This document shows, one piece after another, positions 1-2,713 of a stretch of 64,000 nt of DNA. Positions within the stretch are counted from its first letter, which is position 1. Every line of letters starts with the position of its first letter. The stretch is from Roseovarius sp. (GTDB taxonomy: Bacteria; Pseudomonadota; Alphaproteobacteria; Rhodobacterales; Rhodobacteraceae). A program made the position numbers and the translations under genes. The stretch is taken from the NCBI RefSeq assembly GCF_027019125.1, contig NZ_JALUXE010000030.1:1-64000 (forward strand), given 5' to 3'. A model generated the notes under the pieces. It worked only from the letters and a program-made list of their open reading frames with translations, was not told the DNA's origin and ran no database searches.

Positions 1-147
1 GGATGGTTGGGAAACCTTGGCTCAGCCCATCGCTCCGATCAGCCTTGACCTCGCGGCCTGATCAGGCCCAAATCCACATGCTCGGAGAACGCCGCCGGAG
101 AATTTCTACCAGATTCGAGACACAACCGCCGCGAACAACTTTCCGAA

Positions 148-366
148 GTGATCCAGAAATGGTCTGCCGCGATGTCGATCGAAAGCTTTTTTCGCGAGGC
201 GGAAGAGCGACTTGCCGGCGTCGAGCCCGAGAGGCGCCAGGCCTTGTCCTCTCGGCTTGATCTGGCACGGTCCATGATGGGAACGCTCGATCCGCTGGAG
301 TTTCTGGAACAGTGGGTGGCACCGGATGAGCGTTACACGCGCCTCTATCAAGACGATCAAGATTAA
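148..366 (+). CDS. Small hypothetical protein in integrative element
   Basis: A short acidic protein of 72 aa from a GTG start at 148, or 64 aa from ATG at 172; it ends at TAA 364-366. No signal peptide, membrane segment or known domain is visible; the C-terminal half has the pattern ARSMMGTLDPLEFLEQW and is probably helical. The same frame is already open from base 49, so this may be the 3' end of a longer or broken gene rather than a complete one. It lies inside the element whose integrase is next door on the opposite strand. I do not recognise a function. Confidence 0.35.
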   Translation: MIQKWSAAMSIESFFREAEERLAGVEPERRQALSSRLDLARSMMGTLDPLEFLEQWVAPDERYTRLYQDDQD

Positions 367-448
367 TTTATATCAGATACTTGGTGGGCATTTGTCATGT
401 GTCACCTCTAAGCTTCCGAACCCGTTTGCTCCGAAGCCTGGCGGCATC

Positions 449-1579
449 TTATCGCCGCGCTGAACTTCTCCTGCGCTGCCTTGGATTCCGCGTCGTGACT
501 TCAGCGATCCAGCTCCAGTCCTCGAACTTGTCCCCGGTTTGGCGCAGGTGGGTGTAGCGCTTGAGCGACGTCCAGGATCGGTGGCCGGAAACAGCCGCCG
601 CGTGTGGAACGTTGTAGCCGATCTCGAACAGGCGCGAGACACCTTCGTGCCTGAGGTCATGGAACCGCAGATCCTCGATCCCCAGAAACTGCGTTGCCCG
701 TGTAAAGGCCGCGCTGATCGCATCGGTGGAGTAGGGGAAGATCTGGCTCGCGTGTTTTGGCATCGCCTCGATGATCTCCAGCGCCGGATCGGGCAGGTCG
801 CACCAGACGTCGTTGCCCATCTTCTCGCCGGGGTTCTTCATGTCGCGCACAAGGACGCGTTTACCCTCCTTGTCGAGGTCCGCCCATTTGATGCGGGTGA
901 TCTCTTCCTGCCGCCGGGTCGAGAAAATCGCGAAAGCGATAACGCGATGCATGGGGACAGAGGAGGGGCGGCGGATCGAGCGGTCGAGGAAATGCGCCAT
1001 CAACTGCTCGAGCTCGTCCAGTGTTGGCCGCCGATCGCGGTGACGGCTCTTCTGGGTCAGGCCTAGCTTCTTGGCGACGATCATCGCATTGCGCATCGCA
1101 CGCTCGTCCAGCGGATAGTTCCAGGCCGGGCCGGCCACTGTGAAGACCGCGCTGAGATGTGACAGGTAGTTAGACACGGTTTGCGGCGAGACACCGGTAT
1201 TCAGCTTCTCCTTGGCGAAGGCCACGATGTCGGCGCTGTCGATCTGGGCGCACAGCTTGTTCGCGATGTCGAACTCCTTGATGCTTTTCAGCACCTGCGC
1301 CTTGGTCCGACCGATTGCCTTCGCGCTGTCTTCCACATATTTGTCGATTGCGTCGCCGAGGGTCACTTCGCGGCGGCGGGTCTCTCCGATTGGCAAGTTT
1401 TCGAGGGCGCCGGGCTTGGCCAGGTCCTTCTCGCGCTTCTCGATCCAGGCCGCCGCGGTCGAGCGCAGCTCAAAGGTTCGGTTTTCGCGCCAGACGGTTT
1501 TTCCGGCCCGCCGAACGGCGATCTGGGCAAGCCAGGCGGCAGAGCCGTCTTTGCGCTTTCGCTTGATGATGGTACCCAT
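449..1579 (-). CDS. Tyrosine site-specific integrase (dusA-targeting type)
   Basis: A 376-residue tyrosine recombinase that would integrate and excise the mobile element. An N-terminal arm-binding part (about residues 1-65) and a SAM-like core-binding domain (about 75-170) precede the catalytic domain. Catalytic residues visible are R223 (in STRRQEEI), K248, H307 and R310 (HDLRH), H333 (GHRSW) and the nucleophile Y342 (KRYTHL). The gene diverges from dusA with only 108 bp between them, and that gap carries repeated TTACAACA sites. Integrases next to the 5' end of dusA form a known family that inserts into dusA, so the DNA to the left is read as island DNA. The family call is secure; the dusA target is inferred from position. 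Confidence 0.95.
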   Translation of the reverse strand: MGTIIKRKRKDGSAAWLAQIAVRRAGKTVWRENRTFELRSTAAAWIEKREKDLAKPGALENLPIGETRRREVTLGDAIDKYVEDSAKAIGRTKAQVLKSIKEFDIANKLCAQIDSADIVAFAKEKLNTGVSPQTVSNYLSHLSAVFTVAGPAWNYPLDERAMRNAMIVAKKLGLTQKSRHRDRRPTLDELEQLMAHFLDRSIRRPSSVPMHRVIAFAIFSTRRQEEITRIKWADLDKEGKRVLVRDMKNPGEKMGNDVWCDLPDPALEIIEAMPKHASQIFPYSTDAISAAFTRATQFLGIEDLRFHDLRHEGVSRLFEIGYNVPHAAAVSGHRSWTSLKRYTHLRQTGDKFEDWSWIAEVTTRNPRQRRRSSARR

Positions 1580-1583
1580 GGGG

Positions 1584-1651
1584 TTACAACATTTGGCTCA
1601 AGTTACAACATTTGTTGTAAATCCTACCCGAAATGGGCGTGATTTACAACA
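1584..1651. repeat. TTACAACA repeat array between integrase and dusA
   Basis: The octamer TTACAACA occurs at 1584-1591, 1603-1610 and 1644-1651 on the + strand and inverted at 1613-1620. The second and third copies form an 18-bp near-perfect palindrome (1603-1620). Such clustered short repeats beside an integrase gene are typical of arm-type integrase or excisionase binding sites, and they also overlap the integrase promoter region. The repeats are seen directly; the role is inferred. Confidence 0.6.
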
Positions 1652-1687
1652 AATGAGACAAGAACAGGCTCAAGGGCTGGGCGGTAA

Positions 1688-2713
1688 ATGGCTGATAAAG
1701 ATAAAAAATATAACGTTCTCAATGCGTCGCGTTTATCGGTTGCGCCTATGATGGACTGGACCGACCGGCATTGTCGCTATCTGCATCGGCGGCTTAGTCG
1801 GCATGCGTTGCTCTATACTGAAATGGTGACGGCACCGGCCTTGGTGCGGGGTAATGCGTTGCATTTGCTGGACTTTTCTGTCGAGGAGCATCCGGTTGCC
1901 TTGCAGCTTGGCGGATCGGACCCTGCGGAGCTGGCGCTGGCGGCGCGGATGGGGGCCGAGGCGGGCTATGCCGAGATCAATCTCAACTGCGGCTGCCCGT
2001 CGGACCGGGTGCAATCGGGGCGGTTCGGGGCGATCCTGATGACCGAGCCGGCGCTTGTGGCCGAGTGTTGCGCGGCCATGATTGCCGCGCAACCTGTTGA
2101 AGTTACGGTAAAATGCCGGATCGGGGTGGATGACCAGAACCCCGAGGAGGTGTTGCCGGAGTTCCTGGCACGGATCATCGCGGCGGGTGTGCAGCGGGTT
2201 CAAATTCATGCGCGCAAGGCCTGGCTTGACGGTCTCAGCCCCAAGGAAAACCGCGACATTCCGCCCTTGGATTATGATCTGGTGCAGCGGATGAAGATGC
2301 TGTTCCCCAATCTCCACATCTCGATCAACGGCGGAATTACATCGTTGGATCAAGCGGTTAGCCTGCTTGATCAAGGTCTGGACGGGGTGATGGTCGGGCG
2401 CGCGGCCTATCATCAGCCGGCGGATATTCTTTGTGCGGCGGACCGGCGGATTTACGGTGCCACCGGGCCGGATACCACAGCAGAAGGGGCGGTGCGGGAC
2501 ATGCTCCCCTATATCGAGGCGCATCTCGCAAGCGGTGGGCGATTGCACCAGATCACCCGGCATATGTTGGGTCTTTTTGCTGGAAAACCGGGCGCGCGGG
2601 CGTGGCGGCGGCATCTGTCGGAGGGGGCGACGCGGCCTGGTGCCGGGCCGGAACTGGTCGAGCGGGCCTTGGCAGAAGTAACAGACCTTACGGAATCCGC
2701 CTCTATTTTGTAA
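1688..2713 (+). CDS. dusA: tRNA-dihydrouridine(20/20a) synthase DusA
   Basis: A flavoenzyme of 341 aa that reduces uridines 20/20a of the tRNA D-loop using NADPH. It is a TIM barrel plus C-terminal helical domain. The family marks SVAPMMDWTDRH (17-28), the catalytic-cysteine region NLNCGCPS (about 98-105), the RNA-binding KCRIG and the FMN phosphate-binding INGGI and VMVGRAAY are all present, and the length is normal. Start ATG 1688 keeps the typical short N-terminus. The first residues (MADKDKKYNVLN) are encoded by A/T-rich DNA, consistent with a start region supplied by the integrated element. It converges with argP; the two ends share a hairpin. Confidence 0.96.
   Translation: MADKDKKYNVLNASRLSVAPMMDWTDRHCRYLHRRLSRHALLYTEMVTAPALVRGNALHLLDFSVEEHPVALQLGGSDPAELALAARMGAEAGYAEINLNCGCPSDRVQSGRFGAILMTEPALVAECCAAMIAAQPVEVTVKCRIGVDDQNPEEVLPEFLARIIAAGVQRVQIHARKAWLDGLSPKENRDIPPLDYDLVQRMKMLFPNLHISINGGITSLDQAVSLLDQGLDGVMVGRAAYHQPADILCAADRRIYGATGPDTTAEGAVRDMLPYIEAHLASGGRLHQITRHMLGLFAGKPGARAWRRHLSEGATRPGAGPELVERALAEVTDLTESASIL
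1735..1770. other. Probable attachment-site junction in the 5' end of dusA
   Basis: The first 50-60 bases of dusA (1688 to about 1740) are conspicuously A/T-rich, and base composition changes to host-like GC-rich DNA around the codons for SVAPMMDWTDRH. Known dusA-specific elements recombine in exactly this conserved 5' segment and supply a replacement start for the gene. The junction is therefore placed at about 1735-1770. The second att copy would be outside the window, so the exact core cannot be fixed here. Confidence 0.5.

Follow-up and report, generated by a model that had tools for sequence, protein, structure and literature searches.

How does a gene for tRNA dihydrouridine synthase A come to begin with 54 bases that do not resemble the rest of it? 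The question is raised by dusA near the start of contig C30 (NZ_JALUXE010000030.1) of a Roseovarius sp. genome (GCF_027019125.1; 3.77 Mb in 34 contigs, here G000), of which the first 64,000 nucleotides, hereafter the window, were analyzed. The gene (1688-2713, plus strand, 341 amino acids) scores above two NCBIfam DusA cut-offs (PRK11815 and TIGR00742), and a tyrosine integrase gene (449-1579, minus strand) diverges from it. The original prediction, made from the letters alone, held that a dusA-specific integrase had inserted an element here and supplied a new dusA start, citing this divergence and the A/T-richness of the first 50-odd bases of the gene. Both observations stand: the first 54 bases (1688-1741) have a G+C content (GC) of 35%, against 62% in the rest of the gene. 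We are highly confident that an element of the dusA-associated integrase (DAI) type is integrated at dusA and has supplied its start. The element is of a known kind and ordinary for that kind; the comparative record of repeated start exchange is what adds value.

The contrast within the gene is sharp. Across the 64 kb, 0.11% of the 54-nt windows are equally GC-poor, and the minimum within the dusA body is 48%. The most similar dusA in our genus sample (98% identical in protein) belongs to genome G024, which has no such integrase at its dusA. The two genes are 93% identical at the nucleotide level in the body (here 1742-2713, the host-derived remainder), whereas the first 54 nt, encoding the 18 codons MADKDKKYNVLNASRLSV, are 33% identical (ungapped). 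Genome G001 shows the opposite pattern relative to the present gene, its first 54 nt being 89% identical and its body 74%.

The change falls at a 23-bp core, GCGCCTATGATGGACTGGACCGA, at 1742-1764, which we read as the core of attR. Searching this genome for the core pattern with up to three mismatches returned seven sites, two of them without mismatch: the one in the window and one on contig C24 (12707-12729, minus strand), the counterpart attL. On C24 the core is preceded by a displaced dusA start, MPLNAATEAARLST, and followed by the other end of the element. Over 54 nt (ungapped), this displaced start is 80% identical to the present start of G024 and 30% identical to the present start here; past the core, the resemblance to dusA drops to 16-19% (ungapped; 16% over 100 nt against G024). 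The duplicated att sequence and the comparison with a relative lacking the element, both proposed along with the original prediction, thus came out in its favor. So did its remark that the window shows the right end alone, as the window starts at a contig end and the left end lies on C24. Its extent for the element, 1 to 1770, held in part: the element does end at the 5' end of dusA, but bases 1-127 belong to a multi-copy insertion sequence (IS) and are not specific to the element, and position 1770 is rejected as its end in favor of the core. The crossover point is only bounded by the sequence, the element end lying somewhere within 1742-1764. Two other approaches were less productive. The native left neighbors of dusA, a pair of sulfotransferase genes and a small gene in G026 and G009, were tried as a guide to attL and rejected: the sulfotransferases lie on contig C27, where 19 kb contain no core with fewer than six mismatches. 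A 30-base pattern for a second dusA start, allowing up to three mismatches, matched dusA itself alone.

In the proposed mechanism, the attP site of the element would recombine with a conserved 23-bp stretch of the host dusA that encodes APMMDWTD. Integration would split dusA at about codon 18/19 and leave the host's own start at attL on C24, separated from its gene. The gene would nonetheless remain full-length because the element provides an upstream region, a start codon and 18 in-frame codons, from which dusA would now be expressed. The integrase gene adjoins attR and the gene of a predicted directionality factor, RdfN/PrtN, adjoins attL, and both would flank attP in the excised circle. The element would span C24 from 12706 down to 126, IS sequence with an unassembled middle, and window positions 128-1741.

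The integrase (376 amino acids, apparently intact) matches PF00589 (E = 8.2e-17), and R223, H307, R310, H333 and Y342 are among the columns that are invariant in an alignment of eight integrases; we take these residues to be the catalytic R, H-R, H and Y of tyrosine recombinases. It is 60% identical to the integrase of phage AH2, 50% to that of H66, 49% to BcepIL02, 48% to both BcepMigl and DC1, and 33% to mEp460. In a tree of 24 sequences it clusters with AH2, H66, BcepMigl and DC1 (support 96/98), with mEp460 across that branch; the frame-shifted integrase of Sedimentitalea nanhaiensis is included, and its long branch carries no meaning. Shufflon recombinases match the integrase at 28-32% identity, and the IncI gene beside pilV, presumably Rci, groups with the HK639/PMG1-type integrases (100/100) in a tree with few outgroups and open forks. 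The integrase phylogeny thus agrees with the original prediction: AH2, H66, BcepMigl, DC1 and mEp460 are named as relatives of dusA integrases in the parts of Farrugia et al. (2015; PMC4482086) considered here. A scan of viral contigs with the integrase returned 80 relatives at 49-63% identity. Among the phage and plasmid relatives, the core lies 161-203 nt from the integrase; it is found without mismatch, in an attP-like position, in AH2, RHph_Y3_1, pMl3, BcepMigl and DC1, with three mismatches in H66 and YeP1, and with four in mEp460. Two circular records were also seen. The 50-kb plasmid pMl3 of Sinorhizobium medicae (NZ_CP140896) carries a 59% identical integrase along with its mismatch-free core and may represent a dusA element that is excised or resembles a plasmid. 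The 33.8-kb pP66_i of Phaeobacter inhibens (NZ_CP010714) combines a 54% identical integrase with a PrtN gene; no dusA-like core occurs within 1 kb upstream of that integrase, the best candidate having six mismatches at a distance of 945 nt.

Both recombination genes have open frames. The RdfN/PrtN homolog (C24:12130-12387, 85 amino acids, intact) is 66% identical to gp31 of AH2 and is placed 338 bp inside attL. Between the integrase start and the core lies a 162-bp element end (1580-1741), which comprises the new upstream region of dusA and the leader. Here, arm-type repeats occur at 1584, 1603 and 1644 (TTACAAC) and at 1614 (GTTGTAA), together covering 1584-1650, and overlap a perfect 15-bp inverted repeat (1609-1623/1641-1655). 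Four of the eight GTTGTAA/TTACAAC copies in the 64 kb lie between integrase and core; on the C24 side, 20 kb contain three copies, each of which begins 64-88 nt away from the start of the core. Across the core arms, TACAACA/TGTTGTA occurs 4 + 3 times, and none of 500 mononucleotide shuffles was as good. The same test, which takes the commonest 7-mer found in both arms, was applied to 16 elements with 500 mononucleotide shuffles each. In 12 of them no shuffle was as good and in G022 one was, while the 7-mers do not stand out in RHph_Y3_1 (22/500), G008 (30/500) and G035 (499/500). The 12 are not independent, since six represent the same element type. The arm heptamer varies with the lineage: TGTTGTA here, GTAGCAC in AH2, TGTAGCA in pMl3, and GTAGCAA in H66 and BcepMigl. 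The integrase of phage lambda bridges core and arm sites, and by analogy the present integrase probably bridges its core and the TGTTGTA repeats on both sides. How dusA integrases differ in recognizing DNA may have its basis in these heptamers, which can be tested.

How does this compare with described systems? Farrugia et al. (2015; PMC4482086) described DAIs together with dusA-specific islands, demonstrated excision of such islands by polymerase chain reaction and found a PrtN homolog in 60 of 94 islands. The present element shares with those islands the tyrosine integrase at the dusA 5' end, paired semiconserved att repeats, a dusA 5' end exchanged for a new one, with the former end left at the distant att site, and the PrtN homolog; AH2, the source of the 60% identical integrase, is a relative named there. 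The likeness of the att sites rests on the paired repeats found here and not on the published 21-bp logo. The element differs from those islands in that one integrase lineage is spread across many Rhodobacterales genera, and in that the present copy is broken by an IS. Durand et al. (2021; PMC8409611) used lacZ fusions to demonstrate that an element provides dusA with a new promoter and N-terminus, identified RdfN as the directionality factor and reported tandem dusA elements in Vibrio. Like IMEVchUSA3 and the related Vibrio dusA elements of that paper, the present element has int and rdfN across attP and a new dusA N-terminus. IMEVchUSA3-type elements are SGI1-like and mobilized by IncC plasmids, whereas the relative of the present element in G021 has Trb-type genes. 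The integrative and conjugative element (ICE) SXT, as described in the same paper, likewise enters a host gene at its 5' end, in this case prfC, and provides a promoter and N-terminus. Burkholderia phage AH2 resembles the element in its integrase, its RdfN, a mismatch-free core 161 nt away from the integrase gene and arm heptamers on both sides; it differs in being a phage and in its heptamer sequence. Repeated replacement of dusA starts is not described in the covered sections of Farrugia et al. Neither paper uses 'arm-type' or 'inverted repeat' in its main text, and that of Farrugia et al. also lacks 'arm site'. Literature searches joining integrase, arm-type and dusA, or dusA, integrative and Rhodobacterales, retrieved no paper, with most subscription journals outside their coverage.

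Whether this copy can still move is a separate matter. On the 3' side of the integrase lie a gene remnant and the IS. The window opens (1-127, plus strand) with the right end of an IS of the IS256 family. Annotated IS256 copies on Sulfitobacter plasmids are 95% identical to it, and the same letters stand at the ends of contigs C14, C24 and C5. The IS cuts an element gene of which a 3' part of about 80 codons is left (128-366, plus strand), 94% identical to the C-terminal 80 amino acids of a protein in G021 (Roseovarius litoreus). There, the full relative (454 amino acids, no family matches) lies between McrBC genes and the integrase. The rest of the 454-amino-acid protein has no other match in this genome assembly, and that material is therefore either lost or missed in assembly. 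Across the assembly, IS256 shows four right ends and one left end, on contig C8; by eye, the latter has no target duplication matching the four right ends, and a search with a left-end pattern returned no match. Because two right ends face each other, at least two IS256 copies are expected in the gap. The cut gene, its missing remainder and the facing right ends are what one would expect of a dead remnant in which an IS256-mediated deletion removed the middle, leaving neither excision nor transfer possible. We regard this outcome as a serious possibility, if short of probable. The integrase and rdfN genes, attL, attR and the arm repeats all look intact, so excision by integrase and RdfN remains conceivable even if transfer may be lost. 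The copy is broken by IS256 and probably no longer self-transmissible.

The cargo bears on a further alternative, in which the element is not conjugative but a prophage. Integrases of the dusA type are often phage-borne, the best phage match of the integrase is AH2, whose gp31 is also the match of RdfN, and 48 of the 94 islands were prophages according to the covered sections of Farrugia et al. (2015; PMC4482086). Yet the 12.6 kb beside attL (C24:126-12706) encode SSB, YspA/SLOG, DUF7146-Toprim, a phrog_1362 protein and a protein that resembles ParB but scores under the Pfam and NCBIfam cut-offs; no phage structural gene was matched among the tested open reading frames of this region. Sets of this kind occur on plasmids and ICEs. 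Moreover, the element region of G021, whose integrase is 94% identical to the present one at the nucleotide level, carries TrbE-like, TrbL, TrbI and HipA genes. We thus consider a prophage improbable; with the Trb-type genes of the G021 version, the element family is probably conjugative. Two observations on cargo may be added. Beside its integrase, the R. litoreus element (G021:C7:27423-34842) combines the HipA gene, the McrBC genes and the 454-amino-acid protein, possibly as defense genes. In the present genome, C14:15000-40000 holds a second phrog_1362/ParB-like module along with matches to the element regions of G008, G022 and G021, perhaps another ICE or plasmid; C14 also ends in IS256. 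Contig C5, likewise IS-ended, was compared whole with the relatives and gave no match longer than 200 bp at E 1e-20; neither it nor C14, of which the first 40 of 179 kb were compared, could be placed in this element.

A scan of genome contigs with the integrase yielded 27 loci, mostly Rhodobacterales by their titles. No more than 400 nt separate integrase start and core in 23 of these, the distance being exactly 162 nt in 22 and 178 nt in one; two of the remaining four have too little DNA to judge. Fourteen loci combine an integrase of 90-96% nucleotide identity with a dusA body of merely 66-75%; among further loci, one integrase is at 88% and three are at 79%, lower values representing partial genes. 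For a comparison of element ends, these 23 loci were joined by the window and G001, giving 25 ends (left out were L208 and L233, with little upstream DNA, and L225 and L229, with no core in the available DNA). The integrase-to-core length is 162 bp in 24 of the 25. With the 176 bp before the core as query, this end was found in 16 genomes out of 394 in the family, among them the present one. The search for a second core covered 15 of the 27 loci and found one without mismatch in five; at three mismatches the core pattern also hits by chance, its 64 matches comparing with 8 for the pattern reversed. In each of the five genomes, the DNA past the second core is a left end of the C24 type (82-99% over 120 nt), and the five left ends carry five different displaced dusA starts before the core. 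Of the six such left ends, C24 included, five have RdfN at the same position to one base. The two cores share a contig in G047, at a distance of 60.8 kb, and in G042, at 10.4 kb. These comparisons indicate that it is one integration module with a fixed 162-bp end that occurs across many Rhodobacterales genera. That the integrase-dusA neighborhood is an old vertical arrangement without any mobile element, as a like layout in many Roseovarius-group genomes might suggest (of the 33 genomes whose core is mapped, 15 have integrase-like sequence, often fragmentary, within 500 nt of it), has next to no credibility: it is refuted by the single-contig att pairs and opposed by the displaced starts at attL and the lack of the layout in G024, and the layout is not simply vertical because closely similar integrases sit on distant dusA bodies in the 14 loci. 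Equally untenable is the idea that a weakly constrained N-terminus has simply varied, for although the N-termini of relatives vary, also without a detected integrase, the rarity of such GC-poor windows and the fall in identity to G024 across the core oppose it, and the attL copy with its G024-like start refutes it.

The leader behaves as a coding sequence. In all 25 element ends it is in frame, its start codon (23 ATG, 2 GTG) standing 18 codons before the core and directly after a stop. Minor alleles number 16, 5 and 32 at codon positions 1, 2 and 3 in a subgroup of 15 rows, and 5, 4 and 28 in a subgroup of 10, where equal thirds would be expected without constraint; the variable columns across both subgroups number 11, 8 and 13. 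Because the rows are related, these counts serve as support and not as a test. The element-borne leader is, to judge from this pattern, protein-coding.

Several observations weigh against the proposed explanation. C24 and the window contig are unjoined in the assembly, both ending in the same IS256 right end. No attL with up to three mismatches was found for G021, the closest genus relative by integrase, and in G046, which shares the left end, the 1.5 kb next to attL hold no RdfN; these two results lower our confidence slightly. A sigma-70 scan of 1500-1760 for the putative new promoter of dusA gave no match. No conjugation genes could be placed in this copy, whose middle is unassembled, and no search was aimed at relaxases. 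Finally, the phrog_1362/ParB-like module lies at the attL end here (C24:5000-11811), but at the dusA end and inverted in G008 (C2:1099913-1105752) and G022 (C1:2911301-2918131), which suggests rearrangement or a different element lineage.

If one element could replace the dusA start, did others do so before? We compared 34 of the 40 genomes of the genus sample, leaving out G033 (no DusA match), G015 (core off pattern), G002, G006, G017 and G032. By the 170 nt before the core, they fall into linked groups of 6, 5, 5, 3, 3, 3 and 2, with seven singles and 35 linked pairs. Inside the linked groups the dusA bodies are 69-80% identical, except for one type-B pair at 90%. Further upstream, the number of linked pairs declines to six at 600 nt (n = 33), mostly reflecting the type-A integrase itself, two at 1500 nt (n = 32) and one at 3000 nt (n = 30). 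The group of G009 and G026 represents native neighbors and is not counted as element-supplied, and the G007 and G012 groups are short or weak matches. The four remaining shared groups cover the upstream ends of 19 of the 34 dusA genes, with some links (G022, G011) being weak. The displaced starts at attL, judged by eye, belong to types that other genomes have as their present start: type B in G000, G045, G035, G001 and G022, and type C in G024, with a weak fragment resembling an integrase (25% identity) nearby; that of G044 has a native look. The second att-like sites of G022 (2982035 and 2985040) and of G001 (C22) were likewise read as attL by eye. Taken together, this suggests that the dusA start in the Roseovarius group has been swapped repeatedly by elements. 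The type-B starts speak against such serial replacement: a panel of 12 integrases detected no remnant within 4 kb of dusA in the type-B genomes G024, G019, G030 and G031, and one weak distant match in G005. As no integrase is nearby, reading type B as element-supplied rests on the shared 170 nt.

We lean, with moderate confidence, toward a broader view of serial replacement in which the dusA start is a palimpsest. Most present genes would begin with 11-18 codons that came from elements of four or more families. Many displaced starts would in turn be older element-supplied starts, sometimes with the remains of an older integrase. The leader would evolve as a protein-coding sequence inside the element, so that keeping up part of a host enzyme would be what an element pays for use of the site. 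Since the arm sites lie in the upstream region shared by integrase and dusA, integrase occupancy could also control dusA expression. Traces of successive insertions appear to survive in dusA starts after the elements themselves are gone. The repeated exchange of the first DusA residues lets one ask what constrains the N-terminus and whether elements tune dusA expression. A further observation concerns G022 (C1:2898000-2986776), where two dusA-type integrases lie about 86 kb apart, the outer one containing stops and accompanied by a 25-codon dusA start; the arrangement looks like stacked elements.

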